The translations under genes and the position numbers were made by a program. Under the pieces are notes generated by a model. That model did no database searches and had not been told where the DNA came from. It saw only the letters and a program-made list of their open reading frames with translations. Below are positions 3,001-42,100 of a stretch of 64,000 bases of DNA, one piece after another. Source of the stretch: Chondrosia reniformis (Eukaryota > Porifera > Demospongiae > Chondrillida > Chondrillidae); contig OX359193.1 of NCBI GenBank assembly GCA_947172415.1, positions 7,248,501-7,312,500 on the forward strand, read 5' to 3'. Every line of letters starts with the position of its first letter. Position 1 is the first letter of the stretch.

Positions 3001-3069
3001 TTCATATCTCTCCATTTGACAGAGCTACAGCACTCTAATGTACATTAAATTTCTAGTAAACGACTTTAA

Positions 3070-4114
3070 ATGGGTGTAGCATATATATCGTGCGATACTA
3101 TTTTGAAAATTATCGGCATACGAAGTTAAAATGTTTTGACATGAATGGGGCAACTAGAAACACGCAGGGACAGTCCAGAACGCAGCTGTCAGAAGGCCTT
3201 TACATAGAGGCAGGTAGCCATTATGCTATTACTGCAATTGAGATTGAGTGTGGCTGGTTATACCAGTTTACGTTCATATCGGAACACCTCTCGCTAAAAT
3301 CGTTTCTACATGGGACCAGAAAAGTTGGTCTCCTCCGCCAATCAAGACACTTACAGGATTCTATCCATTTTTCCCAGTTTCTAGATGAACCACGAATACT
3401 GGATATACCTTTAAAATGGCTTGGAACGATGCACTCATCCCGAATTAACTTGATATAATTTGACTACATTTTTCTCGCAAATACCCTATTCTTAAGTATG
3501 GAATAGCGCCAACCACAATCGTTTCCTTTTGAAATTTTCTTGTTTAAATAGAAGCGCAAAACCTTATAAAGTAGGCCTACCTGGACACATCTCTATGGTG
3601 GTAGCGGTTCCCATAGAGGTTGGTAGCGCTTAGACTCTGAAGCTGTCTCCTAATCGGTTGGTGCCATAGAGACGTGCTCACCAATAATCCGGATATCGGG
3701 GGGGTTCCACGTAATGTGGGATTGGCATCTGATATCTTAGGATTCATATGAGTCGGCCATATCGAGAAGAACTGGTTCTTCTCACGCAAGTGACACCCAA
3801 AGCTCAACTCGGCAGAGCGTTACCACCGATCCCGGCCTCTGAGCGTCGTGGATGGTAGCGTTCGGTATGGTCCAACTTTTTTTCTTTGGAGTTTCGTTGG
3901 CCGTCGATCGGCAAAATTTCACTTTAACGACATCCATATAATATATGTGGATAGAAACTGCTTCAACAACAATCAAGTACTACACAGTGCATATCCATGT
4001 GTATAAGAAATCTTTCAAAGAGTTCTATTTTTTCAGAAATATATACAGTACGGCATGTTCACTCTTACACCTACTCAAGGTCGGCCATTTATAGTATTAC
4101 GCAATTAGGGTTAG
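3070..4114. repeat. Spacer unit embedded in the satellite, copy 1
   Basis: About 1,045 bp unrelated to the 170-bp monomer, starting just after a TTAA (3,066-3,069) and ending just before another TTAA (4,115-4,118). Monomer homology stops at the first TTAA and resumes at the second. It contains a 122-residue open frame on plus (3,090-3,458) and 76- and 64-residue frames on minus. None resembles a protein I recognise. No long terminal inverted repeats are visible. The right end reads TTAGGGTTAG (4,105-4,114), about one and a half animal telomere repeats. The flanking TTAA could be a target duplication of a piggyBac-like insertion, or chance in AT-rich DNA. Confidence 0.85.
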
Positions 4115-4414
4115 TTAATGTATGATGAGAAATTTATGTAGAAATCAAAATTTCTAAAACTGTTTGGAAATGTTTCATACATGTCTGTGAATGTAGACAC
4201 AAAGTTTAAACTTCATATTTAGCCATTTGACAGAGTTACAGCACTAAGTGTACATTGTATTAAGAAAATGTATGGGGAAAGATAGGGTAAATTTATGTAA
4301 AAATCAAAATTTCTAAAACTGTTTGGAAATGTTTCATACTTGTATGTGAATGTGGATACCAAGTTTAAGCTTCAAATTTACCAATTTGACAGAGTTACAT
4401 CACTCAATGTACAT
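4115..4414. repeat. Two shortened, diverged satellite monomers right of spacer copy 1
   Basis: Two monomers of roughly 150 bp, clearly related to the main satellite (they keep GGAAATGTTTCATAC and TTTGACAGAGTTACA) but with an altered, shorter GATAGGG-to-TTTGGAAATG interval reading AAATCAAAATTTCTAAAACT. The same pair follows the spacer in copies 2 and 3, so the spacer and these two monomers are amplified together as one unit. Confidence 0.85.
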
Positions 4415-7400
4415 TTAAGTTAATGTATGGTGAGAGATAGGGCAAATGTCAAGATTTATGAAAATTTCAAATTGTCATTGGAAATGTTTCAATCATGTTT
4501 GTGAATGCTGACACCAAGGTTTAGCTTATTAACTTTCCATTTTACAGAGTTATAGTACCAAATGTACATTAAAGTATTGGTATACGAAATTAATGTATGG
4601 TGAGAGATAGGGCAAATGTAAAGATTTATGAAAATTTCAAATTCTCATTGGAAATGTTTCCTACATGTCTGTGAATGCTGACAGCAAGTTTGAGCTTCAT
4701 ATCTTTCCATTTGACAGAATTAGAGCACCAAATGTACATTAATATACTGGAATACCAAATTAATGTATGGTGAGAGATAGGGCAAATGTAAAGATTTATA
4801 TAAATTTCAAATTGTCATTGGAAATGTTTCATACATGTCTGTGAATGCTGACAGCAAGTTTGAGCTTCATATCTTTCTATTTGACAGAGTTAGAGCACCA
4901 AATGTACATTCATATACTGGAATACCAAATTAATGTATGGTGAGAGATAGGGCAAATGTCAAGATTTATGAAAATTTCAAATTCTCATTGGAAATGTTTC
5001 ATACATGTCTGTGAATGCTGACAGCAAGTTTGAGCTTCATATCTTTCTATTTGACAGAGTTAGAGCACCGAATGTACATTAATATACTGGAATACCAAAT
5101 TAATGTATGGTGAGAGATAGGGCAAATGTAAAGATTTATATAAATTTCAAAAACTCTTTGGAAATGATTCAATCATGTTTGTGAATGCTGACACCAAGGT
5201 TTAGCTTATTAACTTTCCATTTTACAGAGTTATAGTACCAAATGTACATTAAAGTATTGGTATACGAAATTAATGTATGGTGAGAGATAGGGCAAATGTA
5301 AAGATTTATGAAAATTTCAAATTCTCATTGGAAATGTTTCCTACATGTCGGTGAATGCTGACAGCAAGTTTGAGCTTCATATCTTTCCATTTGACATAAT
5401 TAGAGCACCAAATGTACATTAATATACTGGAATACCAAATTAATGTATAGTGAGAGATAGGGCAAATGTAAAGATTTATAAAAATTTCAAAAACTCTTTG
5501 GAAATGATTCAATCATGTTTGTGTATGCTGACACCAAGGTTTAGCTTATTAACTTTCCATTTTACAGAGTTATAGTACCAAATGTACATTAAAGTATTGG
5601 TATACGAAATTAATGTATAGTGAGAGATAGGGCAAATGTAAAGATTTATGAAAATTTCAAATTCTCATTGGAAATGTTTCATACATGTCTGTGAATGCTG
5701 ACAGCAAGTTTGAGCTTCATATCTTTCCATTTGACAGAGTTAGAGCACCAAATGTACATTAAAGTATTGGTATACGAAATTAATGTATAGTGAGAGATAG
5801 GGCAAATGTAAAGATTTATGAAAATTTCAAATTCTCATTGGAAATGTTTCCTACATGTGTGTGAATGCTGACAGCAAGTTTGAGCTTCATATCTTTCCAT
5901 TTGACAGAGTTAGAGCACCAAATGTACATTAATATACTGGAATACCAAATTAATGTATAGTGAGAGATAGGGCAAATGTAAAGATTTATAAACATTTCAA
6001 AAACTCTTTGGAAATGATTCAATCATGTTTGTGAATGCTGACACCAAGGTTTAGCTTTTTAACTTTCAATTTTACAGAGTTATAGTACCAAATGTACATT
6101 CATATACTGGAATACCAAATTAATGTATAGTGAGAGATAGGGCAAATGTAAAGATTTATGAAAATTTCAAATTCTCATTGGAAATGTTTCCTACATGTCT
6201 GTGAATGCTGACAGCAAGTTTGAGCTTCATATCTTTCCATTTGACAGAGTTAGAGCACCAAATGTACATTAATATACTGGAATACCAAATTAATGTATGG
6301 TGAGAGATAGGGCAAATGTAAAGATTTATTAACATTTCAAAAACTCTTTGGAAATGATTCAATCATGTTTGTGAATGCTGACACCAAGGTTTAGCTTATT
6401 AACTTTCCATTTTACAGAGTTATAGTACCAAATGTACATTCATATACTGGAATACCAAATTAATGTATGGTGAGAGATAGGGCAAATGTAAAGATTTATG
6501 AAAATTTCAAATTCTCCTTGGAAATGTTTCATACATGTCTGTGAATGCTGACAGCAAGTTTGAGCTTCATATCTTTCCATTTGACAGAGTTAGAGCACCA
6601 AATGTACATTAAAGTATTGGTATACGAAATTAATGTATAGTGAGAGATAGGGCAAATGTAAAGATTTATGAAAATTTCAAATTCTCATTGGAAATGTTTC
6701 CTACATGTCTGTGAATGCTGACAGCAAGTTTGAGCTTCATATCTTTCCATTTGACAGAGTTAGAGCACCAAATGTACATTAATATACTGGAATACCAAAT
6801 TAATGTATAGTGAGAGATAGGGCAAATGTAAAGATTTATAAAAATTTCAAAAACTCTTTGGAAATGATTCAATCATGTTTGTGAATGCTGACACCAAGGT
6901 TTAGCTTATTAACTTTCCATTTTACAGAGTTATAGTACCAAATGTACATTAAAGTATTGGTATACGAAATTAATGTATGGTGAGAGATAGGGCAAATGTA
7001 AAGATTTATGAAAATTTCAAATTCTCATTGGAAATGTTTCATACATGTCTGTGAATGCTGACAGCAAGTTTGAGCTTCATATCTTTCCATTTGACAGAGT
7101 TAGAGCACCAAATGTACATTAATATACTGGAATACCAAATTAATGTATAGTGAGAGATAGGGCAAATGTAAAGATTTATGAAAATTTCAAATTCTCATTG
7201 GAAATGTTTCATACATGTCTGTGAATGCTGACAGCAAGTTTGAGCTTCATATCTTTCCATTTGACAGAGTTAGAGCACCAAATGTACATTAATATACTAG
7301 AATACCAAATTAATGTATGGTGAGAGATAGGGCAAATGTAAAGATTTATAAAAATTTCAAAAACTCTTTAGAAATGATTCAATCATGTTTGTGAATGCTG

Positions 7401-9013
7401 ACACCAAGGTTTAGCTTATTAACTTTCCATTTGACAGAGTTAGAACACCAAATGTACATTAATATACTGGAATACCAAACTAATGTGTGGTGAGAGATAG
7501 GGCAAATGTCAAGATTTATGAAAATTTCAAATTCTCATTGGAAATGTTTCATACATGTCTGTGAATGCTGACAGCAAGTTTGAGCTTCATATCTTTCCAT
7601 TTGACATAATTAGAGCACCAAATGTACATTAATATACTGGAATACCAAATTAATGTATGGTGAGAGATAGGGCAAATGTAAAGATTTATAAACATTTCAA
7701 AAACTCTTTGGAAATGATTCAATCATGTTTGTGAATGCTGACACCAAGGTTTAGCTTATTAACTTTCCATTTACAGAGTTATAGTACCAAATATACATTA
7801 AAGTATTGGTATACGAAATTAATGTATGGTGAGAGATAGGGCAAAAATCAAGATTTATGAAAATTTCAAATTCTCATTGGAAATGTTTCATACATGTCTG
7901 TGAATGCTGACAGCAACTTTGAGCTTCATATCTTTCTATTTGACAGAGTTAGAGCACCAAATGTACATTCATATACTGGAATACCAAATTAATGTATAGT
8001 GAGAGATAGGGCAAATGTAAAGATTTATGAAAATTTCAAATTCTCATTGGAAATGTTTCATACATGTTTGTGAATGCTGACAGTAACTTTGAGCTTCATA
8101 TCTTTCTATTTGACAGAATTAGAGCAACAAATGTACATTCATAAACTGGAATACCAAATTAATGTATGGTGAGAGATAGGGTAAATGTAAAGATTTATGA
8201 AAATTTCAAATTCTCATTGGAAATGATTCAATCATGTTTGTGAATGCTGACACCAAGGTTTAGCTTATTAACTTTCCATTTGACAGAGTTATAGTACCAA
8301 ATGTACATTAAAGTATTGGTATACGAAATTAATGTATGGTGAGAGATAGGGCAAATGTAAAGATTTATGAAAATTTCAAATTCTCATTGGAAATGTTTCC
8401 TACATGTCTGTGAATGCTGACAGCAAGTTTGAGCTTCATATCTTTCCATTTGACAGAATTAGAGCACCAAATGTACATTAATATACTGGAATACCAAATT
8501 AATGTATAGTGAGAGATAGGGCAAATGTAAAGATTTATGAAAATTTCAAATTCTCTTTGGAAATGTTTCATACATGTCTGTGAATGCTGACAGCAAGTTT
8601 GAGCTTCATATCTTTCCATTTGACAGAGTTAGAGCACCAATTGTACATTAAAGTATTGGTATACGAAATTAATGTATAGTGAGAGATAGGGCAAATGTAA
8701 AGATTAATGAAAATTTCAAATTCTCATTGGAAATGTTTCCTACATGTCTGTGAATGCTGACAGCAAGTTTGAGCTTCATATCTTTCCATTTGACAGAGTT
8801 AGAGCACCAAATGTACATTAATATACTGGAATACCAAATTAATGTATAGTGAGAGATAGGGCAAATGTAAAGATTTATGAAAATTTCAAATTCTCATTGG
8901 AAATGTTTCAAACATGTCTGTGAATGCTGACGTTAAGTTAAAGCTTCATATCTCTCCATTTGACAGAGCTACAGCACTCTAATGTACATTAAATTTCTAG
9001 TAAACGACTTTAA

Positions 9014-10058
9014 ATGGGTGTAGCATATATATCGTGCGATACTATTTTGAAAATTATCGGCATACGAAGTTAAAATGTTTTGACATGAATGGGGCAACTA
9101 GAAACACGCAGGGACAGTCCAGAACGCAGCTGTCAGAAGGTCTTTACATAGAGGCAGGTAGCCATTATGCTATTACTGCAATTGAGATTGAGTGTGGCAG
9201 GTTATACCAGTTTACGTTCATATCGGAACACCTCTCGCTAAAATCGTTTCTACATGGGACCAGAAAAGTTGGTCTCCTCCGCCAATCAAGACACTTACAG
9301 GATTCTATCCATTTTTCCCAGTTTCTAGATGAACCACGAATACTGGATATACCTTTAAAATGGCTTGGAACGATGCACTCATCCCGAATTAACTTGATAT
9401 AATTTGACTACATTTTTCTCGCAAATACCCTATTCTTAAGTATGGAATAGCGCCAACCACAATCGTTTCCTTTTGAAATTTTCTTGTTTAAATAGAAGCG
9501 CAAAACCTTATAAAGTAGGCCTACCTGGACACATCTCTATGGTGGTAGCGGTTCCCATAGAGGTTGGTAGCGCTTAGACTCTGAAGCTGTCTCCTAATCG
9601 GTTGGTGCCATAGAGACGTGCTCACCAATAATCCGGATTTCGGGGGGGTTCCACGTAATGTGGGATTGGCATCTGATATCTTAGGATTCATATGAGTCGG
9701 CCATATCGAGAAGAACTGGTTCTTCTCACGCAAGTGACACCCAAAGCTCAACTCGGCAGAGCGTTACCACCGATCCCGGCCTCTGAGCGTCGTGGATGGT
9801 AGCGTTCGGTATGGTCCAACTTTTTTTCTTTGGAGTTTCGTTGGCCGTCGATCGGCAAAATTTCACTTTAACGACATCCATATAATATATGTGGATAGAA
9901 ACTGCTTCAACAACAATCAAGTACTACACAGTGCATATCCATGTGTATAAGAAATCTTTCAAAGAGTTCTATTTTTTCAGAAATATATACAGTACGGCAT
10001 GTTCACTCTTACACCTACTCAAGGTCGGCCATTTATAGTATTACGCAATTAGGGTTAG
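9014..10058. repeat. Spacer unit embedded in the satellite, copy 2
   Basis: Same element as at 3,070-4,114, nearly identical. Visible differences include GGCAGGTTATACC in place of GGCTGGTTATACC, GGTCTTTACA in place of GGCCTTTACA and GGATTTCGGGG in place of GGATATCGGGG. Start-to-start distance from copy 1 is 5,944 bp. TTAA flanks both ends. The plus-strand 122-residue frame (9,034-9,402) is intact with one tryptophan-to-arginine change. Confidence 0.85.
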
Positions 10059-10366
10059 TTAATGTATGATGAGAAATTTATGTAGAAATCAAAATTTCTA
10101 AAACTGTTTGGAAATGTTTCATACATGTCTGTGAATGTAGACACAAAGTTTAAACTTCATATTTAGCCATTTGACAGAGTTACAGCACTAAGTGTACATT
10201 GTATTAAGAAAATGTATGGGGAAAGATAGGGTGAATTTATGTAAAAATCAAAATTTCTAAAACTGTTTGGAAATGTTTCATACTTGTATGTGAATGTGGA
10301 TACCAAGTTTAAGCTTCAAATTTACCAATTTGACAGAGTTACATCACTCAATGTACATTTAAGTTA
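10059..10366. repeat. Two shortened, diverged satellite monomers right of spacer copy 2
   Basis: Same pair of atypical short monomers as after copy 1, in the same order. A single change (GGGTGAATTTATG for GGGTAAATTTATG) is visible. Typical 170-bp monomers resume at about 10,367. Confidence 0.85.
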
Positions 10367-13300
10367 ATGTATGGTGAGAGATAGGGCAAATGTAAAGATT
10401 TATGAAAATTTCAAATTGTCATTGGAAATGTTTCAATCATGTTTGTGAATGCTGACACCAAGGTTTAGCTTATTAACTTTCCATTTTACAGAGTTATAGT
10501 ACCAAATGTACATTAATATACTGGAATACCAAATTAATGTATGGTGAGAGATAGGGCAAATGTAAAGATTTATATAAATTTCAAAAACTCTTTGGAAATG
10601 ATTCAATCATGTTTGTGAATGCTGACACCAAGGTTTGGCTTATTAACTTTCCATTTTACAGAGTTATAGTACCAAATGTACATTAAAGTATTGGTATACG
10701 AAATTAATGTATGGTGAGAGATAGGGCAAATGTCAAGATTTATGAAAATTTCAAATTCTCATTGGAAATGTTTCCTACATGTCTGTGACTGCTGACAGCA
10801 AGTTTGAGCTTCATATCTTTCCATTTGACAGAATTAGAGCACCAAATGTACATTAATATACTGGAATACCAAATTAATGTATGGTGAGAGATAGGGCAAA
10901 TGTAAAGATTTAAGAAAATTTCAAATTGTCATTGGAAATGTTTCATACATGTCTGTGAATGCTGACAGCAAGTTTGAGCTTCATATCTTTCTATTTGACA
11001 GAGTTAGAGCACCAAATGTACATTAATATACTGGAATACCAAATTAATGTATAGTGAGAGATAGGGAAAATGTCAAGATTTATGAAAATTTCAAATTCTC
11101 ATTGGAAATGTTTCCTACATGTCTGTGAATGCTGACAGCAAGTTTGAGCTTCATATCTTTCCATTTGACAGAATTAGAGCACCAAATGTACATTAATATA
11201 CTGGAATACCAAATTAATGTATGGTGAGAGATAGGGCAAATGTAAAGATTTATGAAAATTTCAAATTCTCATTGGAAATGTTTCATACATGTCTGTGAAT
11301 GCTGACAGCAAGTTTGAGCTTCATATCTTTCTATTTGACAGAGTTAGAGCACCAAATGTACATTAATATACTGGAATACCAAATTAATGTATAGTGAGAG
11401 ATAGGGCAAATGTAAAGATTTATATAAATTTCAAAAACTCTTTGGAAATGATTCAATCATGTTTGTGAATGCTGACACCAAGGTTTAGCTTATTAACTTT
11501 CCATTTTACAGAGTTATAGTACCAAATGTACATTAAAGTATTGGTATACGAAACTAATGTATGGTGAGAGATAGGGCAAATGTAAAGATTTATGAAAATT
11601 TCAAATTCTCATTGGAAATGTTTCCTACATGTCTGTGAATGCTGACAGCAAGTTTGAGCTTCATATCTTTCCATTTGACAGAGTTAGAGCACCAAATGTA
11701 CATTAATATACTGGAATACCAAATTAATGTATGGTGAGAGATAGGGCAAATGTAAAGATTTATGAAAATTTCAAATTCTCATTGGAAATGTTTCATACAT
11801 GTCTGTGAATGCTGACAGCAACTTTGAGCTTCATATCTTTCTATTTGACAGAGTTAGAGCACCAAATATACATTCATATACTGGAATACCAAATTAATGT
11901 ATAGTGAGAGATAGGGCAAATGTAAAGATTTATGAAAATTTCAAATTCTCATTGGAAATGTTTCCTACATGTCTGTGAATGCTGACAGCAAGTTTGAGCT
12001 TCATATCTTTCCATTTGACAGAATTAGAGCACCAAATGTACATTAATATACTGGAATACCAAATTAATGTATGGTGAGAGATAGGGCAAAAGTAAAGATT
12101 TATATAAATTTCAAATTCTCATTGGAAATGATTCAATCATGTTTGTGAATGCTGACACCAAGGTTTAGCTTATTAACTTTCCATTTGACATAGTTATAGT
12201 ACCAAATGTATATTAAAGTATTGGTATACGAAATTAATGTATGGTGAGAGATAGGGCAAATGTAAAGATTTATGAAAATTTCAAATTCTCATTGGAAATG
12301 TTTCCTACATGTCTGTGAATGCTGACAGCAAGTTTGAGCCTCATATCTTTCCATTTGACAGAATTAGAGCACCAAATGTACATTAATATACTGGAATACC
12401 AAATTAATGTATGGTGAGAGATAGGGCAAATGTAAAGATTTATGAAAATTTCAAATTCTCTTTGGAAATGTTTCATACATGTCTGTGAATGCTGACAGCA
12501 ACTTTGAGCTTCATATCTTTCTATTTTACAGAGTTAGAGCACCAAATGTACATTAATATACTGGAATACCAAATTAATGTATGGTGAGAGATAGGGCAAA
12601 TTTAAGGATTTATGAAAATTTCAAATTCTCATTGGAAATGATTCAATCATGTTTGTGAATGCTGACACCAAGGTTTAGCTTATTAACTTTCCATTTGACA
12701 GAGTTATAGTACCAAATGTACATTAAAGTATTGGTATACGAAATTAATGTATGGTGAGAGATAGGGCAAATGTCAAGATTTATGAAAATTTCAAATTCTC
12801 ATTGGAAATGTTTCCTACATGTCTGTGAATGCTGACAGCAAGTTTGAGCTTCATATCTTTCCATTTGACAGAATTAGAGCACCAAATGTACATTAATATA
12901 CTGGAATACCAAATTAATGTATGGTGAGAGATAGGGCAAATGTAAAGATTTATGAAAATTTCAAATTCTCTTTGGAAATGTTTCATACATGTCTGTGAAT
13001 GCTGACAGCAAGTTTGAGCTTCATATCTTTCTATTTGACAGAGTTAGAGCACCAAATGTACATTAATATACTGGAATACCAAATTAACGTATAGTGAGAG
13101 ATAGGGCAAATGTAAAGATTTATGAAAATTTCAAATTCTCATTGGAAATGATTCAATCATGTTTGTGAATGCTGACACCAAGGTTTAGCTTATTAACTTT
13201 CCATTTGACAGAGTTATAGTACCAAATGTACATTAAAGTATTGGTATACGAAATTAATGTATGGTGAGAGATAGGGCAAATGTCAAGATTTATGAAAATT

Positions 13301-14618
13301 TCAAATTCTCATTGGAAATGTTTCCTACATGTCTGTGAATGCTGACAGCAAGTTTGAGCTTCATATCTTTCTATTTGACAGAGTTAGAGCACCGAATGTA
13401 CATTAATATACTGGAATACCAAATTAATGTATGGTGAGAGATAGGGCAAATGTAAAGATTTATATAAATTTCAAAAACTGTTTGGAAATGATTCAATCAT
13501 GTTTGTGAATGCTGACACCAAGGTTTAGCTTATTTACTTTCCATTTTACAGAGTTATAGTACCAAATGTACATTAAAGTATTGGTATACGAAATTAATGT
13601 ATTGTGAGAGATAGGGCAAATGTCAAGATTTATGAAAATTTCAAATTCTCATTGGAAATGTTTCATACATGTCTGTGAATGCTGACAGCAAGTTTGAGCT
13701 TCATATCTTTCCATTTGACAGAGTTAGAGCACCAAATGTACATTAATATACTGGAATACCAAATTAATGTATAGTGAGAGATAGGGCAAATGTCAAGATT
13801 TATGAAAATTTCAAATTCTCATTGGAAATGTTTCATACATGTCTGTGAATGCTGACAGCAAGTTTGAACTTCATATCTTTCCATTTGACAGAGTTAGAGC
13901 ACCAAATGTACATTAATATACTGGAATACCAAATTAATGTATAGTGAGAGATAGGGCAAATGTAAAGATTTATGAAAATTTCAAATTCTCATTGGAAATG
14001 TTTCATACATGTCTGTGAATGCTGACAGCAAGTTTGAGCTTCATATCTTTCCATTTGACAGGGTTAGAGCACCAAATGTACATTAATATACTAGAATACC
14101 AAATTAATGTATAGTGAGAGATAGGGCAAAAGTAAAGATTTATAAAAATTTCAAAAACTCTTTGGAAATGATTCAATCATGTTTGTGAATGCTGACACCA
14201 AGGTTTAGCTTATTAACTTTCAATTTTACAGAGTTATAGTACCAAATGTACATTCATATACTGCAATACCAAATTAATGTATAGTGAGAGATAGGGCAAA
14301 TGTCAAGATTTATGAAAATTTCAAATTCTCATTGGAAATGTTTCATACATGTCTGTGAATGCTGACAGCAAGTTTGAGCTTCATATCTTTCCATTTGACA
14401 GAGTTAGAGCACCAAATGTACATTAATATACTGGAATACCAAATTAATGTATAGTGAGAGATAGGGCAAATGTAAAGATTTATGAAAATTTCAAATTCTC
14501 ATTGGAAATGTTTCAAACATGTCTGTGAATGCTGACGTTAAGTTAAAGCTTCATATCTCTCCATTTGACAGAGCTACAGCACTCTAATGTACATTAAATT
14601 TCTAGTAAACGACTTTAA

Positions 14619-15663
14619 ATGGGTGTAGCATATATATCGTGCGATACTATTTTGAAAATTATCGGCATACGAAGTTAAAATGTTTTGACATGAATGGGGC
14701 AACTAGAAACACGCAGGGACAGTCCAGAACGCAGCTGTCAGAAGGCCTTTACATAGAGGCAGGTAGCCATTATGCTATTACTGCAATTGAGATTGAGTGT
14801 GGCTGGTTATACCAGTTTACGTTCATATCGGAACACCTCTCGCTAAAATCGTTTCTACATGGGACCAGAAAAGTTGGTCTCCTCCGCCAATCAAGACACT
14901 TACAGGATTCTATCCATTTTTCCCAGTTTCTAGATGAACCACGAATACTGGATATACCTTTAAAATGGCTTGGAACGATGCACTCATCCCGAATTAACTT
15001 GATATAATTTGACTACATTTTTCTCGCAAATACCCTATTCTTAAGTATGGAATAGCGCCAACCACAATCGTTTCCTTTTGAAATTTTCTTGTTTAAATAG
15101 AAGCGCAAAACCTTATAAAGTAGGCCTACCTGGACACATCTCTATGGTGGTAGCGGTTCCCATAGAGGTTGGTAGCGCTTAGACTCTGAAGCTGTCTCCT
15201 AATCGGTTGGTGCCATAGAGACGTGCTCACCAATAATCCGGATTTCGGGGGGGTTCCACGTAATGTGGGATTGGCATCTGATATCTTAGGATTCATATGA
15301 GTCGGCCATATCGAGAAGAACTGGTTCTTCTCACGCAAGTGACACCCAAAGCTCAACTCGGCAGAGCGTTACCACCGATCCCGGCCTCTGAGCGTCGTGG
15401 ATGGTAGCGTTCGGTATGGTCCAACTTTTTTTCTTTGGAGTTTCGTTTGCCGTCGATCGGCAAAATTTCACTTTAACGACATCCATATAATATATGTGGA
15501 TATAAACTGCTTCAACAACAATCAAGTACTACACAGTGCATATCCATGTGTATAAGAAATCTTTCAAAGAGTTCTATTTTTTCAGAAATATATACAGTAC
15601 GGCATGTTCACTCTTACACCTACTCAAGGTCGGCCATTTATAGAATTACGCAATTAGGGTTAG
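14619..15663. repeat. Spacer unit embedded in the satellite, copy 3
   Basis: Third copy of the spacer, 5,605 bp after copy 2. It shares GGATTTCGGGG with copy 2 and has private changes such as CGTTTGCCGTCG (others CGTTGGCCGTCG) and TATAGAATTACG (others TATAGTATTACG). It is flanked by TTAA on both sides, and the 122-residue frame is intact (14,639-15,007). Confidence 0.85.
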
Positions 15664-15968
15664 TTAATGTATGATGAGAAATTTATGTAGAAATCAGAAT
15701 TTCTAAAACTGTTTGGAAATGTTTCATACATGTCTGTGAATGTAGACACAAAGTTTAAACTTCATATTTAGCCATTTGACAGAGTTACAGCACTAAGTGT
15801 ACATTGTATTAAGAAAATGTATGGGGAAAGATAGGGTAAATTTATGTAAAAATCAAAATTTCTAAAACTGTTTGGAAATGTTTCATACTTGTATGTGAAT
15901 GTGGATACCAAGTTTAAGCTTCAAATTTACCAATTTGACAGAGTTCCATCACTAAATGTACATTTAAG
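15664..15968. repeat. Two shortened, diverged satellite monomers right of spacer copy 3
   Basis: The same atypical pair as in copies 1 and 2, with scattered changes (for example GAGTTCCATCACTAAATG where the others read GAGTTACATCACTCAATG). Only about four and a half ordinary monomers follow before the array ends. Confidence 0.83.
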
Positions 15969-16720
15969 TTAATGTATGGTGAGAGATAGGGCAAATGTAA
16001 AGATTTATGAAAATTTCAAATTGTCATTGGAAATGTTTCATACATGTCTGTGAATGCTGACAGCAAGTTTGAGCTTCATATCTTTCCATTTGACAGAGTT
16101 AGAGCACCAAATGTACATTAATATACTGGAATACCAAATTAATGTATAGTGAGAGATAGGGCAAATGTAAAGATTTATGAAAATTACAAATTCTCATTGG
16201 AAATGTTTCATACATGTCTGTGAATGCTGACAGAAAGTTTGAGCTTCATATCTTTCCATTTGACAGAGTTAGAACACCAAATGTACATTAATATACTGGA
16301 ATACCAAACTAATGTATGGTGAGAGATAGGGCAAATGTAAAGATTTATGAAAATTTCAAATTCTCATTGGAAATGTTTCATACATGTCTGTGAATGCTAA
16401 CAGCAAGTTTGAGCTTCATATCTTTCCATTTGACAGAGTTAGAGCACCAAATGTACATTAATATACTGGAATACCAAACTAATGTATGGTGAGAGATAGG
16501 GCAAATGTAAAGATTTATGAAAATTTCAAATTCTCATTGGAAATGTTTCATACATGTCTGTGAATGCTGACAGCAAGTTTGAGCTTCATATCTTTCCATT
16601 TGACAGAGTTAGAGCACCAAATGTACATTAATATACTGGAATACCAAATTAATGTATTGTGAGAGATAGGGCAAATGTAAAGATTTATGAAAATTTCAAA
16701 TTGTCATTGGAAATGTTTCA

Positions 16721-33164: not shown

Positions 33165-36100
33165 ATGGGTTGCGATGGAGGCTCGATACCCAAAAGGATA
33201 GAGATGGTTAAGCTGAAGAAGAAGGATGAAAAGGTGAGATTTAGATAAATTGTTGTTCTAGTTTGACTGTGGGCTTAATTTTTAGCAAGTGGTACTATCG
33301 TGCATGTTAGCACTGCTTTAGCTATCTTGTTACGTTTTATCGCTTTTAGGCACAGAAGGACGCGGCTTTAGTGGCTAAATGGAAACATTGCGCCATCAGC
33401 TCCCAACTTCTAAGAGAACCAGTAGTGGCTTGTGGTCTTGGTAATCTTTACAACAAAGAGTCAGTTATCGAGGCCCTGCTTGACCCGGCCAAGATGCCCG
33501 AATTAGCCTCTCACATCAAATCCTTGAAGGTAGGCTTGTAGTGTTATTCATATTATACACTCCCAGATATGGTTTGTTAATATACGTAAGTATGTACCTA
33601 TCTTCATTATGTGTCAAGTAATTAAATCTTGAATTAATAACTAAATATACCTACGTACTTCCATTTGTAGTGTATTAGCCATCAGCAATAATGTGTCTGT
33701 AATACTGTACATTAATAGATATTTGCACTATACATACATACGTAGGTCCTATGTTAAGTGGTTGGAGTTAATTAAGAATGTGGAAAGATTAATGTCCATA
33801 AGGATTGCCCAAGTCTGGCCAGTTCTTTGGACAGACTGATTCACAGGTACTGAGTGTTCGTTCTTGACTGCCCACTTTGTACCTGCAGTGGTTGGCATTG
33901 AGATAGGAGCAGCGAGGGCTGGGACGTTTGGGACACTCCCAGGGGGAGAAGGTCTTTATCTTGCTCAAGGGGGTTGGTTGCCTCATCCATTCTATTAGCT
34001 GGGTGTGGGTGACTATATAGACATCTGACATTCCTTTGATGTAATCCAGAAACTTTACAAAGGCTGGGAAGTGGTATGTAGGATAAAAGAAGAAAGCTGA
34101 ATGACCATAGAGACCAAAGGGAGCTCTGTTTCCCTTGTAATGGCTCTCAAAGTTGTTTGTAAGGAATTGTACCCATTCATCCTCGCTCATTTCAGCAGTA
34201 CATTGATCTAATACAGCACAGACCTGTCCATTTTTTTGTATATTTTCAATATTGGGCACCACCCAAATACCCGGATAAGAGTCGTTGGGACAGGTTGCTG
34301 GGCTCTGACAGAGTGGGGACTTGTAGTCTAGAGTGAATGGCCAGTAAGCTGTTCGGGAGGGCATGGAGGCATCGTAGGTGAAGCTTGTGTTCTTCAGGGC
34401 CCTGATTTCATTTTCAGAGGAGGCTAGAAAGGGGGCCCTGAATCCAGTAACCTCTTTGGGAGGTACATTCCCCCAAGCCTCCAAAATGGTTTTCATGTCA
34501 GCTATTTCCTGTGACCATTGTGCTGATGAGGCATTCAGCCAGAAGGAGGTGGGGGTCTGATGAGTTACAGTGTGGTCGGCTATCTCATGTCCTTGCGAGT
34601 AGAGGTCCTCCACTAGAGAGTAGTCTGTACTGTAGTAGTGAGTGGTGAAGAAGGTGAGAGGAATTGGGCAGCCATTTGGATTGGAATGGTTAAACAGAAA
34701 TTTTGAGTAGAACATTTCATAGTCTTCGACTCTTACACCATCATCAAAGCTGATGACTATCATCTGAGGTGTCTCTTCTGCAGTTAGTCCTCCAGGTATA
34801 GAGGTGCTGGCACAGTGACAGCTGGGCAGCTTACATTTTGATTGGTCACAAGGCTGGGCTGGATCACCCACCACTAAAACCAGTACTACACTGAAGAGAA
34901 TAACCTTCTGGAGAAACATCTTGTCAAATGGTTCACTAAATCAACTGAGCCAAAGAGTGATAGCCTAGGTTTTATAACTAGACCACAGCCTTAGTTTAGC
35001 TGTAGCTAGTACTTGGGGAATTTCTAGGTGACCTATGCATAGTATCATGTGACTATTAATACTGAAGGTATGAGGATGTAACCTATTATATTGTAATATT
35101 GCTATATAATATGTTGATTCAGTACTAATTGTTTACATAGTAGCAATTCTGTTGTTTTGGTGAACTGAATATTTTATTAACCTCAAATAAAAGGTATTTG
35201 GGAATTTTTAAGGTGACCTTTTTAGTTAAAAGGTTTACTTTCCAGTCAAATGAGTGCTAATTAAGCAGTTACATCATGTGACCTCTCAGCTGGTTTAGCC
35301 ATAGCTACTTGTGGTAAGGTGTCAGTTAACTAGCAGCTGTCAAGATGCTAAGCCGATTGAAAATGAAGATGTTTTTCTTTTTGTGCAGCTCAGTCATTTA
35401 AATATAATTTAATAATATGCAAAAATCTGTATGTTTTGTACATACGTACATACCTACATATGATATCTACATATGTGTATGTTAACATACTAAAATTCAA
35501 GGGAACTAGACACTTTATATACATACCGGCAGAGCAATCCTTAAGCTTGACATATACATTGTACAGTGTAGAACTGACATTCATTTATGAATATACATGT
35601 TATAGTACATGCATGAATGTTTATTCGGTTGTATTGAAATTGGTCCTATTATCTTGATTCAATTAATGTCCATAAGGATTGCCCAAGTCAGGCCAGTTCC
35701 TTGGACACACTGGTTCACAGGTACTTAGGATCCGCTGTACACCTGCCACTGTATACCTGCAGTGGTTGGCATTGAGATAGGAGCAGCGAGGGCTGGGACG
35801 TTTGGGGCACTCCCAGGGGGAGAAGGTCTTTATCTTGCTCAAGGGGGTTGGTTGCCTCATCCATTCTATTAGCTGGGTGTGGGTGACTACATAGACATCT
35901 GACATTCCTTTGATGTAATCCAGAAACTTTACAAAAGCACTTAAATGGTAAGACTGTGTATAAAAGAAAGCTGAAGTGGCATATACTCCCAAAGGTGCCT
36001 TCTCTCCACTGTAATGTGCTTCAAAGTTGCTTATGAAGAACTTGACCCAATCGTCTTCACTCTGAAGTGAGGTACATTGTTCCAAAACAGCACAGACCTG

Positions 36101-38869
36101 TCCATTGCTCTGCTTGTTATCAATATTGGGCACCACCCAAATACCCGGATAAGAGTCGTTGGGACAGGTTGCTGGGCTCTGACAGAGTGGGGACTTGTAG
36201 TCTAGAGTGAATGGCCAGTAAGCTGTTCGGGAGGGCATGGAGGCATCGTAGGTGAAGCTTGTGTTCTTCAGGGCCCTGATTTCATTTTCAGAGGAGGCTA
36301 GAAAGGGGGCCCTGAATCCAGTAACCTCTTTGGAAGGTACATTCCCCCAAGCCTCCAAAATGGTTTTCATGTCAGCTATTTCCTGTGACCATTGTGCTGA
36401 TGAGGCATTCAGCCAGAAATCTGCTGGACTTCTATGTGTGACCGTCTGGTCGGCTATCTCATGTCCTTGCGAGTAGAGGTCCTCCACTAGAGAGTAGTCT
36501 GTACTGTAGTAGTGATTAGGGAAGAAGGTGAGAGGAATTGGGCAGCCATTTGGATTGGAACGGCCAATCAGAAATTTGGAGTAGAACATTTCATAATCTT
36601 CAACCCTAAGGCCATCAGAGAAGCTGATGACTATCATCTGAGGTGTCTCTTCTGCAGTTAGTCCTCCAGGTATAGAGGTGCTGGCACAGTGACAGCTGGG
36701 CAGCTTACATTTTGATTGGTCACAAGGCTGGGCTGGATCACCCACCACTAAAACCAGTACTACACTGAGGAGAATAACCTTCTGGAGAAACATCTTGTCA
36801 AACTGTCTTCTTAAAGGGAAACTTTGTGCTGTATAGTCTATTTATCGCCTTTGGTGACCTTAAATATCATGTGATGCCAGCTGTTGTTTTCATTAGGTCA
36901 GTCAGTTTAGATAACTAGTAGACGTATATAACCCAATTAGTACAGTGTTTCCCTCCCTGGTGATGCTTTGCAAAGGTTATAGGGTAGCCACCATTGCTCA
37001 TGTACAGATAAGGTTAGCAGCAATTAGTACAGTGGTTTCCCTAGCTGTATGTATTCACCTCTCAAATATATGTACTTTTATTATAAGTAAGTGCATTCAT
37101 GAGATGTCACCCAATGCAATAATCAGAGGCTAGAATGGCTTCTGGTAACAGAAAGATTAACTACGTACAATTACGTATATACAGTTTTGCCAGAATTGAA
37201 CTCAGTATTCCCATGCATCCTTGTGGAAGGCTTAATTCTAATTGCTTCTGCAATGATTCAATTTAAAGTATTACAAATATAGGGCTAGGATCTTTTTAGA
37301 AATACCAGGGAGGGGGAGAATACAATACAGTAGTATTTTGAGGAAGCAACCTAGTTCAATATGTTGTTTGCTATATTACAAATGACCAATTTGACTTGCT
37401 TCAAGGGGACAAAGCCCGACACCCCTTAAAAGAAATCTTGATACGTAGATAATAGATAGCTGTCAGTAAGGAGGCCAAGAGAAGTACTGTCAAGTGTTTA
37501 TAGCGATAGACATGATCACTTAATCCTTAATTTGTTCTTTTGACACATTAGGATGTAACTGAATTGAATCTAACCCCCAATCCATCAGCAGAGAAGAATG
37601 CAAAGTCATTGGACCAGTTTAAGGATGCACAGTCAGCGGCCTTCATATGTCCCATTACCAGCCTGGAGATGAGTGGAGTTTACAGGTAATTTCACCAAGT
37701 TTGCTGTGGTATTGGGTTGTTTACATCCTAAAATCCTTTTCTTAAGTATTTGTTTAAAAGTGTGTAATGGTTTGAATTTATTTATCTTGTTCTACAAGTT
37801 CAAAAAACAAATATCTGTGTTTTTATTTGATCAACCACAAGTGTTTTCTTTGATGAAAACTTTGTTTAAATAAATGACGCCTACCATTATATATGGGGTT
37901 GATTGCATGTGCTGAAGCTGAGCTTACTTACATCTTCACAAGCCAGTAGAAGCCATGTGGTCGGCTCCGCCCTTTTACCGTATATGGACGGGCTGGCTCC
38001 GCCCTTTTACCATATATGGAAGGGTCACAGGAATGTACATGTGGTTATCTTGACTCCGCCCTCTTTCCTTATATGGATACTTATAGCTAAACCACAAGTT
38101 TCCATATGTGGATTCTAACCTTTAAACCACAACTATTTACTTTATGCTCATTTACGTAAGTAACTAAAGCTTGTTTGTTTTTGTAGATTTTTATTCTTGA
38201 GGAGTTGTGGATGTGTATTTTCAGAGAAAGCCTTGAAGGAGGCCCCTTCTGAAGTCTGTCACACTTGTGGTAAGCCTTTTGATAAGATGGACCTGCTTGT
38301 CCTCAATGGAGATGAGAAGGATGTGGAGAACCAGAAGGCATTCATGGAAGAACGAAAGAAACAAGTAAAAGTAGCAAAAGTAAGCAAGTTCTAGCTAATC
38401 AGACTTGTTTTCACTAGTTGGAAGTTTCTGAAAGGAAATGAGTATTATTGTATTGTAAGTTTTAATTTAATTTTACCACATTTAGAGTGTTGTTTAATTA
38501 AAGAATTTTGTGTCCACAACTTTATAGAAGAAAAGAAAAGTGGCTGAATCTCTTCAAAATGGACATAAGAATGGCAAAGACGAGGAGGTTCCTTCAGAGA
38601 AGAAACTGAAATGTTCAGCAGTAAAGAAGTTTGATGCCAAGCCATGTGCTCCAAAGGACAGGAAGCCACAAAAGGACACCAATGGAAGCAATTTGAGTGG
38701 GGCAACAAAGCACATTGTTCAGAAGATGGCAAAACACCTGGCAAATGACCCAGAAAAGGATGAACTGAAGAGCAGAAAGGCATACAAGTCCATCTTCACC
38801 TCAAGCCAAGAGACTGTCACTAATGATAAGAAGAAACCACACTGGGTTACTTTTAACTCATACCATTAA
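33165..38869 (+). CDS. RTF2: Replication termination factor 2 (five exons, large intron 2)
   Basis: RTF2 is a nuclear protein that stabilises stalled replication forks and has a RING-like Rtf2 domain. The exons are 33,165-33,233, 33,350-33,529, 37,552-37,685, 38,187-38,379 and 38,528-38,869, together 918 nt or 305 residues; human is 306. The start MGCDGGSIPKR is the family signature. The RING-like region spans AKWKHCAISSQLLREPVVAC, then FICPITSLEM, SCGCVFSEKALKEAP and EVCHTCGKPF. The C-terminal half is lysine-rich and low in complexity, ending with AYKSIFTSSQ and HWVTFNSYH, which match the family tail. Intron 2 is about 4.0 kb, far longer than the others, and contains two complete antisense genes. 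Confidence 0.95.
33789..34919 (-). CDS. Chitin-deacetylase-like secreted enzyme, copy 1 (motifs intact)
   Basis: A single-exon frame of 376 residues. Residues 1-18 form a signal peptide (MFLQKVILFSVVLVLVVG). A cysteine-rich segment follows (CDQSKCKLPSCHC), then a carbohydrate esterase family 4 (NodB) domain as in animal chitin deacetylases, which remove acetyl groups from chitin outside the cell. Motif 1 is SFDDG (D59 expected catalytic base, D60 metal ligand), motif 2 is HTVTH (H116 and H120, metal ligands), motif 3 is RAPF (161-164), and a later GHSAFF and VTHTQLIEW complete the fold. The C-terminus is a second cysteine-rich segment ending LGNPYGH. The gene lies antisense inside RTF2 intron 2, in tandem with copy 2. 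Confidence 0.9.
   Translation of the reverse strand: MFLQKVILFSVVLVLVVGDPAQPCDQSKCKLPSCHCASTSIPGGLTAEETPQMIVISFDDGVRVEDYEMFYSKFLFNHSNPNGCPIPLTFFTTHYYSTDYSLVEDLYSQGHEIADHTVTHQTPTSFWLNASSAQWSQEIADMKTILEAWGNVPPKEVTGFRAPFLASSENEIRALKNTSFTYDASMPSRTAYWPFTLDYKSPLCQSPATCPNDSYPGIWVVPNIENIQKNGQVCAVLDQCTAEMSEDEWVQFLTNNFESHYKGNRAPFGLYGHSAFFFYPTYHFPAFVKFLDYIKGMSDVYIVTHTQLIEWMRQPTPLSKIKTFSPWECPKRPSPRCSYLNANHCRYKVGSQERTLSTCESVCPKNWPDLGNPYGH
34920..35662. other. Spacer between the two nested deacetylase genes
   Basis: AT-rich, 743 bp. It should contain the promoter of copy 1 and the 3' end of copy 2, since both read leftward. A TACATACGTACATACC-type stretch lies at 35,437-35,455. No coding signal is supportable; the small frames at 35,390-35,657 overlap on both strands and look random. 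Confidence 0.5.
35663..36793 (-). CDS. Chitin-deacetylase-like protein, copy 2 (predicted inactive)
   Basis: A single-exon frame of 376 residues, the same length as copy 1 and mostly identical to it, with the same signal peptide and cysteine pattern. The open frame is undamaged but catalytic positions are changed. Motif 1 is SFSDG, so the expected base D59 is serine. Motif 2 is QTVTH, so the first metal histidine H116 is glutamine. GHSAFF of copy 1 is ATSAFF here (H273 to threonine). The RAPF motif and D60 remain. This pattern predicts loss of deacetylation with a preserved fold, for example a chitin-binding pseudoenzyme. Divergence is concentrated in patches, with near-identical blocks between them. 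Confidence 0.9.
   Translation of the reverse strand: MFLQKVILLSVVLVLVVGDPAQPCDQSKCKLPSCHCASTSIPGGLTAEETPQMIVISFSDGLRVEDYEMFYSKFLIGRSNPNGCPIPLTFFPNHYYSTDYSLVEDLYSQGHEIADQTVTHRSPADFWLNASSAQWSQEIADMKTILEAWGNVPSKEVTGFRAPFLASSENEIRALKNTSFTYDASMPSRTAYWPFTLDYKSPLCQSPATCPNDSYPGIWVVPNIDNKQSNGQVCAVLEQCTSLQSEDDWVKFFISNFEAHYSGEKAPLGVYATSAFFYTQSYHLSAFVKFLDYIKGMSDVYVVTHTQLIEWMRQPTPLSKIKTFSPWECPKRPSPRCSYLNANHCRYTVAGVQRILSTCEPVCPRNWPDLGNPYGH
36794..37551. other. Remainder of RTF2 intron 2
   Basis: Contains the presumed promoter of deacetylase copy 2 and an interspersed repeat-like stretch at 37,305-37,420. That stretch resembles 62,690-62,780 in the NT5DC intron; both contain the phrase CCTAGTTCAAT followed by GTTTGCTAT. 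No gene is seen. Confidence 0.5.
37962..38077. repeat. Three copies of a GC-box plus CArG-like unit in RTF2 intron 3
   Basis: Three related units, at 37,962-37,987, 37,994-38,020 and 38,052-38,077. Each reads (G/A)CTCCGCCC, then T/C-rich DNA, then a TATATGGA-type end. The middle one contains CCATATATGG (38,010-38,019), a perfect CC(A/T)6GG box of the kind bound by SRF. The spacing is irregular. Confidence 0.6.
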
Positions 38870-39169
38870 CCACACTCTCATATGTGAAACACATCTACAT
38901 CAATATGCCTATTAACCAACAATTTGAAAGTATACACTTTGGATTAAACTACATACATATATGTATAGATTGTTTTTGAAGTAACTGTTCCTCTGAATGG
39001 TACTTCACAGCTTTATTTCAATTTTGGAATATAATCGAAATAATTGAACTATCCGTCTATTAATGGCTAATTGGCCCGAAGGGAATTTCCTTGTTCGGTG
39101 ACAAATGGCGACACGTACTGGATTCCGTCCCAAATCTCACTACATTACTTAGTGCATAGTCGCTTAATC

Positions 39170-42100
39170 ATGTTGGAGAAGTATATAACTCCAGTGTTGA
39201 TGTATTACTTGGAGAGGTACGTGAAGAATATCGACCCGAAGGACCTTCAGTTGTCGTTCTGGGGCGGCGATGCCACCTTGAAGAACCTGGAGTTGCGATG
39301 CGACATTCTTGAAAAGGAAATGAGCGATTTTCCTTTAATCATAACAAGTGGTAAGGTGCAGGAGCTGATAATACACGTACCGTGGACGACCATAGGCTCA
39401 GAACCGGTAGAAATTACAATTGCAGGAATCGATTGCTCTGCCATTTTGAGAGGTAGCGAAGCAGACAAGAAACACAAGCTTAGTGTAGAGCAAGAGCGGT
39501 CTGACGTGCCAGCCAATCAAACGGAGGACCCGTCGCCTGTACAGTCAGCCAGTTATCTGCAAGGCCTTCTTAATCGCATAGTAAACAACGTGGTTTTCCA
39601 CATTAAAAATTTCACAATTAGGGTCACAGATATTGACATACGCCTGACATTTCATGCGCGTGGGATGGATGTATTTACCACAGAGGAGGGGTGGAATAGA
39701 AAGTATGTATACACAGACTACCTTAAAGAGAACTACACCATTCACAAGGAGTGTGTTGTCACGGATATGTATGCCACTCTGGAGCAACTCAACGGTGCAG
39801 GACAAGTGGAATACTATGAAGATCCCTTTACATCAAATTTTGCAATGATTGTTCGAATAATGTCCACTTTTAAAGACAATGCTTTAAGAGAGAAGAGGAT
39901 TGAGTTCTGGTGTACGTCGATAGATTTCTCAACAACACCACTTCAATTCAGTTTGTGTGTTACACTGCTTGATCGTCTCCTTGCCATGTACTACTCCTCA
40001 AAGGAGCACAGAAAAGCAGGCGAGGAGACAACACAAGAATCAGGTCAAATGGCAGAGGAACAAAAGATCTCCGACCCAAGTCTGTCCTCCTCAGACAACC
40101 AAACAGAGAAGGAAGATCCAAAGCATGTTTCTGCAGATGCACCATTGTCCTGGTCCTCATGGGCGTGGTCCTTTGTGGTTGACCCTGGAGACAGCAGCCA
40201 GGAACCAACCAAAGAAGAGTTGGAGGAGGTATCTAGCCTGGGAGTAAAGCCAGGTGAGAAAGGAATATGTAACTGCCAGTGTCTTTATCTAATTGTACCT
40301 TTTCTGACAATGCTCTGAATTTGTGACCTTTCCTTGTGACCTTTGTTAGGTTTTCTTGTTATGTACATATGTGAACACAATAGTTTCTTTTGATTTACCA
40401 TTTTACCTCAGAATACCAGCCAGTTCAAGTAGCAAAGCAGTCGCCATCTTTTCATTTAATCATTGTGGTAGATAAGGCTACCCTCACAATAAAGGCAGCT
40501 CAATATCCCAGACCCTCCACTCTCTATGGACCAGTCCCCACCCTACGTCCGCAAATGGCCCCCATGGCCAAGGTGACCTTTACAGGTTGCATGTTCAGAA
40601 TGTCCTTGGAGCCAGATTCAGATTTCTTTGCTGTTTACCAAGGATTCATGGACATAGAGGCCAGTCTAATTGGACGCTGCTCCTGCTTCAAATTTGAAAA
40701 CCAGCCGCCTAGCAACAAGAGAAAAGCCTTTCAGAACACTGAACCAGAGGAGGTAGTTTTACACTGATGCCTAATGCAAATGACAAGCTATGTATGTTTA
40801 GGTTGGCATACTTAGGTAGTTCTGAGATAATCTCCAAATTTTACTCTTTAATTTTATGGTACATATTAATGTTTTCCATTTGTTATGTGTACGTAGTTTA
40901 CTGTATTTCGGTTGGAGGGAGAGAATGATGATGATTCTCTTCAGTCTGGTAAACTCCTTCAAGGTACATTGTTTGATCCCAAGTGGAATGCTGAGTCAGC
41001 AGACAAGAGAAAGCTCTCGGATCAACTGTGTCCTTCAGCTTCCTTCCAGGGTTTCTGGTTCTCGTATGAATATTATGAAGCAGGGAAGGGGAGAGAGAGG
41101 GAGACTTGTGATGAAGTAATGCAGTTTGGTCAGGTATCTTGTCTCTGGTGCGTGGAAGTACAGCATTGCATCAGTCAGCTGAAATCAAGCATCCAGCAAA
41201 CACTAAGTGTGAACCCATGGAATAGTTCCAGTGAGTGTGATTATTGTTGTCCACATCTTCCTAATATGGAAGAGGTGTAGCACACAAAGTTGTACCTTAT
41301 GTGTAGGTTTCATTGTAATTGGAGATCCTTTGGCCAAGACTAAGATACGTGTTGCTACTCCTGGCATCAAAGTGATCATTCCAAGCTGCTCACATGATTC
41401 TGTCCAATCAGAAGAGACGTCATATTTTGCTTCTTGTCAGGGTAGCCATTTTATTCTCTCTGTCAATAAGGGTGTATCCATTGACATCACCCAGCCAATG
41501 TATAAGGAAAATGCAACATTTGACCTGGTACAACACACGTCTCTGGAAATGGAGGTTTGTACATGACCAGAGTATACGTATGTGCATCAAAATTAATGTT
41601 CATCACAAGTGAATATTACTAGTAAATATAAAGTTGCTACAGATATTAAGTACATATATATTGCAAGCTGTGTAATTTAGACATCATCATTTTGAGAGTT
41701 GCATTACAGGAGTCAGGTTTGATATGTTCCTTCTTGTTTAGGCTCCAAAACTAAAATTGGTGCTTGTTGATAATGGAAGTTGGGATCTTGTGGACCTTGC
41801 TCATTGGAATATCAATTACCATGCAAGGAATAATGGTGCTGAAACAACAAGGTTTGGAACATGGGAAATTATTTCACTGCCAGTAGACCTAAATGTAGAT
41901 TGTGCATCAGAAGAAGAAGGAGAAGGCTCTTGTATCCTCATCCAAAGCTCTCACTAGGTTTAGTTCCCTATAGGCCTTCATTCTAGTATAGATGTAGCAT
42001 GTTGAAAATGAGTATTCATCTAGTGTCTACATTGAAAAATAGGGGTTTTAAGATCTAGAGCCAGTCTTGATCTTTGATGTCATCACCATGTGACTCTGGA

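Follow-up and report, generated by a model that had tools for sequence, protein, structure and literature searches.

Chitin deacetylase-like (CDA-like) proteins with changed catalytic motifs are known from arthropods, where they have been called inactive and their roles argued from sequence and knockdown. Among group V insect CDAs, members without some motif residues have been reported and may be inactive, CDA-like proteins of the lepidopteran midgut that lack motif residues are thought to be inactive, and knockdown of ApCDA5a/5b has been linked with breakage of the peritrophic matrix (all as given in the accessible part of PMC11719712). Group V is not all dead, as BmCDA8 is active (PMC6463723) and BmCDA7 is reported to be active (PMC3958831); BmCDA1 requires accessory proteins for activity (PMC6463723). 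TnPM-P42, which is CDA-like, is a strong chitin binder (as told in PMC3958831). In the tick peritrophic membrane, IsCDA carries substitutions in its catalytic motifs, and a structural, non-enzymatic function has been suggested for it (PMC3798397). A separate precedent concerns gene conversion: the human red and green opsins are tandem duplicates homogenised by conversion, with a peak of divergence at sites selected to differ, and the Teshima-Innan model describes divergence peaks under gene conversion (PMC3924837, through which we cite the model).

Here we analysed a window of 64,000 nucleotides, which appears to be part of chromosome 5 of the sponge Chondrosia reniformis and which holds two tandem CDA-like genes, called copy 1 and copy 2 below. 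The likeness of copy 2 to the group V insect CDAs (BmCDA8; the midgut ApCDA5a/5b and HaCDA5a/5b) is that the CDA domain is the only domain in the protein, whereas the host here is a sponge and a motif-complete twin lies 0.74 kb away. The group V proteins considered inactive reportedly keep motifs 1-3, as far as the accessible source goes, whereas copy 2 loses residues of motifs 1 and 2. Copy 2 resembles IsCDA in its substituted catalytic motifs, but the available portion of PMC3798397 describes neither an active tandem twin nor a conversion mosaic for IsCDA. As with the opsins and in the Teshima-Innan model, divergence between copies 1 and 2 peaks in discrete islands. Both opsin twins are functional receptors, whereas the protected sites of the sponge pair appear to include an active site that one twin has lost. 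Inactive CDA-like proteins and divergence peaks under conversion were already known separately. Among the matches listed in a search of the open-access literature, none reported a sponge pseudo-deacetylase, and none reported live and dead deacetylase twins, homogenised except for active-site islands, in a sponge. The pair offers a natural control, in that silent differences have nearly all been erased except in islands lying mostly on the active site, and the differences that remain in those islands are candidate residues separating the enzyme from the non-enzyme.

A nested tandem pair and its catalytic motifs

The C. reniformis assembly comprises 117.37 Mb in 14 chromosomes plus a mitochondrial sequence, with 8.8 Mb in chromosome 5 and 8.13 Mb in chromosome 8 (PMC12181767). 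Both twins are on the minus strand in a head-to-tail arrangement with 743 bases between them, the pair spanning 3 kb, and each consists of one uninterrupted, single-exon open frame. They align over an equal length of 376 codons without a gap, stop or indel, which bears out the initial description of copy 2 as full-length and undamaged; all 14 of its cysteines are in place. A signal-peptide-like start, judged by eye, is common to both. Judged by motif matches only, a TATA-like element lies 52-57 bases 5' of the ATG in both copies, and an AATAAA begins 41 bases from the first base of the copy 2 stop codon; none was found within the 503 bases checked for copy 1. As an observation in its own right, the two single-exon genes are nested antisense within one intron of an RTF2-like gene, whose GT...AG boundaries were identified by eye (Table 1).

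Both proteins belong to the CE4/metazoan chitin deacetylase fold family, as indicated by PF01522, by solved CDAs and by the 87% identity of the twins. Copy 1 scored 46.9 bits against PF01522 and copy 2 scored 32.2 bits (residues 86-181), with a cut-off of 23.1. A structure search with copy 1 as the query returned 5z34 (BmCDA8, E 1.3e-76) as the closest solved structure, along with 5zns (BmCDA1, E 2.4e-71). Two further related domains are present in the genome, both in one paralogue on chromosome 8; searching the genome exon by exon and scoring the best candidates yielded no related domain beyond these two.

Structures of BmCDAs show that motif 1 provides the catalytic base and one zinc ligand, that motif 2 provides two zinc ligands, that the motif 3 arginine stabilises the base, and that the pocket owes its shape to motifs 4 and 5 (PMC6463723, accessible part). 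The roles that the initial annotation had given to the motif 1 base and the motif 2 metal histidine agree with this BmCDA1 structure paper, and the three substitutions that it had listed for copy 2, with copy 1 unchanged, are seen at the codon level. Codon 59 in motif 1 reads TCT instead of GAT (D59S), codon 116 in motif 2 reads CAG instead of CAC (H116Q), and codon 273, the position of the motif 5 histidine, reads ACT instead of CAT (H273T). Copy 1, both chromosome-8 domains, BmCDA8 (5z34) and BmCDA1 (5zns) all have D, H and H at these positions. Copy 2 thus has serine in place of the catalytic base aspartate, retains D60 and H120 of the Asp-His-His zinc triad with Q116 as the third residue, and has T273 where copy 1 has H273; copy 1 has D59 and all three triad residues. 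The motif 3 arginine, R161, is retained in copy 2, and motif 4 is altered by D238E, a change that, like the mosaic described below, the initial annotation had not noted. Work on bacterial CE4 enzymes assigns the aspartate of motif 4 a role in assisting the histidine of motif 5. In the alignment with BmCDA8, the +1 subsite residue Q125 is matched by T124 (copy 1) or A124 (copy 2), a replacement that may weaken sugar binding and is a point against the chitin-binding role considered below. From these residues, copy 2 is very probably unable to deacetylate by the CE4 mechanism, and copy 1, with all five motifs kept, should be an active secreted deacetylase.

Table 1. Coordinates of the twin genes, their divergent and converted tracts, and other features mentioned in the text. 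Positions are those of the window unless a contig is given; islands are placed on copy 2.
Feature	Position	Strand	Evidence or content
Copy 2, chitin-deacetylase-like, 376 aa, predicted deacetylase-dead	35663..36793	-	PF01522, motif residues
Copy 1, twin with catalytic motifs kept, 376 aa	33789..34919	-	PF01522; 5z34 match
Island A, codons 58-78, motif 1 (D59S)	36560..36622	-	14/63 nt and 3/4 fourfold sites differ
Island B, codons 92-93	36515..36520	-	3/6 nt differ; no comparable fourfold site
Island C, codons 116-125, motif 2 (H116Q)	36419..36448	-	15/30 nt and 4/4 fourfold sites differ
Island D, codons 225-286, motifs 4 (D238E) and 5 (H273T)	35936..36121	-	64/186 nt and 7/13 fourfold sites differ
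Island E, codons 348-368, C-terminal part	35690..35752	-	16/63 nt and 4/7 fourfold sites differ
Longest converted tract of copy 2, codons 126-224, motif 3	36122..36418	-	1/297 nt and 0/48 fourfold sites differ
RTF2-like gene intron enclosing both copies in antisense	33530..37551	+	Pfam Rtf2 in flanking exons
VPS13 N-terminal region, open frame	39071-40318		Pfam VPS13_N, 126 bits
Satellite array	1-16720		TRF, 85.9 copies of a 170-base unit over 1-14597
Chromosome-8 paralogue, 2234 aa	C8:4608794-4615498 (L010 2794-9498)		Intronless open frame, two CDA domains
GH18 cluster	C7:5774659-5780506 (L012-L014)		Three GH18 (chitinase-family) matches in 6 kb

Identical and divergent tracts between the twins

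The copies differ at 49 of 376 residues and, in clusters, at 117 of 1131 nucleotides. All but three of the residue differences (46) lie in five islands totalling 116 codons, which we drew by eye once the differences were known. Island D alone contains 26 changed residues out of 62, and the identical stretches between A and B and between B and C are short, at 13 and 22 codons. The twins differ at 18/28 fourfold sites inside the islands and at 0/117 outside, with NG86 dS values of ~2.1 and 0.012, respectively. Low silent divergence except in peaks is one feature of duplicates under gene conversion with selection to stay different. Between copy 1 and the first chromosome-8 domain, fourfold sites differ both in the islands (13/24) and outside them (41/61), so the tracts outside the islands are under no special silent constraint.

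The clustering is strong. Runs at the 145 fourfold sites were fewer than in every one of 200,000 shuffles, and runs over the 311 codons encoding the same residue in both copies were fewer than in every one of 100,000 shuffles. As a control, copy 1 compared with the chromosome-8 paralogue was unclustered, with as few runs in 34,300 of 50,000 shuffles. The longest identical run between the twins is 214 nt, compared with a maximum of 135 among 20,000 shuffles; for fourfold sites only, the longest run of 51 sites was reached in 407/100,000 shuffles, a weaker result than the count of runs.

Recent gene conversion overwrote the sequence outside the islands; we found no other reading that fits. The contrast in dS indicates that the conversion is young and the duplication old. 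The same follows from the fourfold sites of the islands, where the divergence between the twins equals that between copy 1 and the chromosome-8 paralogue, so that the split is old and the similarity comes from recent conversion. On this evidence the twins are not new, contrary to what had been proposed for copy 2, and the case is a caution, since 87% whole-gene identity makes an old pair seem young. The alignment of the twins extends no more than 9 nt 5' of the ATG and a single base past the stop codon. In the flanks there are only short, scattered matches, the best of which is a 36-base inverted one, and none extends the gene alignment, which also fits an old duplication. A recent duplication is ruled out by the saturated silent sites in the islands together with the non-aligning flanks.

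We next considered where the islands lie relative to seven catalytic-motif residues (59, 60, 116, 120, 161, 238 and 273). The islands contain four of the five catalytic motifs and hold six of the seven scored residues, although islands B and E hold none. A placement holding six was equalled in 6/376 circular shifts, with the real placement counted, and in 136/20,000 random placements. When islands were defined from silent differences alone, five of the seven were held (9/376 circular shifts; 583/20,000 random placements), and with one codon added on each side of these, six were held (5/376; 94/20,000). These statistics are modest, from 0.005 to 0.03, and refer to islands delimited after the differences had been seen. 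Conversion theory predicts such a placement for a small region selected to stay different, as has been argued for the opsins (PMC3924837). The placement is suggestive but not proof; the mosaic might equally have been produced by one patchy conversion event.

Selection on the islands and competing explanations

Pairwise omega in the islands is 0.166, and a likelihood ratio test against 1 gave 45.4 (p = 1.6e-11). An omega this low rejects neutral decay of the pair, the constraint belonging to the pair as a whole. A three-sequence codon model rejected neither a neutral copy 2 (p = 0.19) nor a neutral copy 1 (p = 0.87), and with free branches the omega of copy 1 ran to its upper limit, 7.4, on a branch of 0.03. 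Because silent sites are saturated, the constraint is not assignable to copy 2 alone. The earlier appeal to selection accordingly finds support at the level of the pair: the proposed ratio of non-synonymous to synonymous change gives the 0.166 between copies, from which the copy-2 branch is not separable. Support for constraint on copy 2 itself is indirect. The 116 divergent codons of copy 2 contain no indel and no stop. We calculated that 4.7% of neutral mutations in the islands would create a stop, so that the islands would escape stops with a probability of 0.04 if the branch were 0.6 substitutions per codon long, as estimated for copy 2 under the neutral model, and of 0.004 at 1.0.

Five other CDA domains (copy 1, the two on chromosome 8, BmCDA8 and BmCDA1) share the same residue at 24 island positions. 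Copy 2 retains 18 of these residues, the four cysteines included, and has lost six (D59S, H116Q, D238E, N264E, R265K and H273T). Changes at these invariant positions affect 4/6 active-site residues (D59, D60, H116, H120, D238 and H273) and 2/18 others (Fisher p = 0.018); measured against all other island residues, there is no significant active-site excess (4/6 vs 42/110, p = 0.21). The idea that loss had occurred only at catalytic sites is too strong, given the 46 island residues that differ. With the first chromosome-8 domain as the reference, copy 2 carries 16 unique residue changes within the islands, compared with 5 for copy 1 (p = 0.027).

We conclude that copy 2 is probably an old, deacetylase-dead, secreted protein that binds chitin or serves as a partner, with selection shielding its active-site region from conversion. 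On this view copy 2 goes back to an old tandem duplication shared with copy 1 and is still folded and secreted, though without CE4 chemistry: the base (D59), one zinc ligand (H116) and the histidine of motif 5 (H273) have gone, and the motif 4 aspartate has been altered. Conversion has recently homogenised the remaining coding sequence, with the five islands escaping. Alleles in which conversion had overwritten the active-site region of either twin may have been selected against, because the pair presumably has to keep one catalytic and one non-catalytic member. The likeliest role for copy 2 would be to bind chitin or a similar GlcNAc polymer without deacetylating it, or to partner copy 1, acting in a structural or regulatory rather than an enzymatic way; a chitin-binding or decoy role, as had been suggested initially, is plausible by analogy with the arthropod precedents. 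We put forward only tentatively the stronger idea that conversion between the active and the dead deacetylase is ongoing and that selection vetoes it at the active site, both versions being needed. If so, the twins may act together on one chitin fibre as an obligate pair, and the islands map the residues that make them different.

Several other explanations bear on the same data. Copy 2 could be a dispensable, decaying duplicate whose frame is repaired by conversion, the islands being tracts that have not yet fallen. The non-rejection of the copy-2-neutral model, with a copy-2 branch estimate of 0.60, is compatible with decay, as are the faster change of copy 2, the loss of the family-invariant N264 and R265, and a no-stop probability that at the neutral branch length is not vanishing. 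We nevertheless consider decay unlikely, since 116 divergent codons have accumulated neither an indel nor a stop, three quarters of the family-invariant island residues are kept, and the losses lean towards the active site, with the islands sitting on catalytic motifs. That copy 2 is instead a changed enzyme, using D60 and H120 with new neighbours for another hydrolysis, metal chemistry or substrate, seems to us quite improbable. Its retention of D60, H120 and R161 and the extensive remodelling of island D (26/62 residues) would suit such a change, but D59 (the base), H116 (a zinc ligand) and H273 (in motif 5) were lost together, and none of the replacements (S, Q and T) is acidic or a histidine.

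The mosaic could also have arisen the other way round, if a recent duplicate of copy 1 had received its islands from a third paralogue that has since been lost, and the shortness of the tracts between islands A, B and C is in keeping with this. We regard this origin as very improbable: the exon-by-exon search found, among the best candidates that it scored, no related domain besides the two on chromosome 8, the flanks of the twins do not align as those of a recent duplicate would be expected to, and the twins share small indels relative to chromosome 8 in or beside island D, although these are not polarised. To an assembly artefact or haplotype duplication we give practically no credence. Near-identical tandem tracts can mislead assemblers, and curation removed four haplotypic duplications from this assembly, but the HiFi coverage was ~70x with a mean read length of ~12.9 kb (computed by us from 10.31 Gb in 0.80 million reads) and the primary consensus quality was 69.8 (PMC12181767, accessible part). 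The pair, moreover, spans just 3 kb and its flanks do not align. The reading of copy 2 as an old, non-catalytic partner or chitin-binding protein remains the one we favour.

Relatives elsewhere and neighbouring features

The chromosome-8 paralogue begins with a signal-peptide-like start, and its two CDA domains are nearly identical to each other, with 1 of 133 compared fourfold sites differing. After these domains comes a repeat present 30 times at a spacing of 37 residues (39 twice), with 43% Ser+Thr, and a hydrophobic stretch starts at residue 2146. In layout the protein resembles a membrane-anchored mucin that carries a pair of deacetylase domains. A pattern search elsewhere returned 70 matches in genome contigs and 24 in viral contigs, none of which was confirmed as a relative. 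On contig 7, the clustered GH18 matches are possibly further duplicated chitin-metabolism genes.

Within the window, the VPS13 open frame lies downstream of the RTF2-like exons. At the other end, large blocks of the satellite array recur at an offset of ~5.9 kb, and the three largest are 91.5-94.3% identical.
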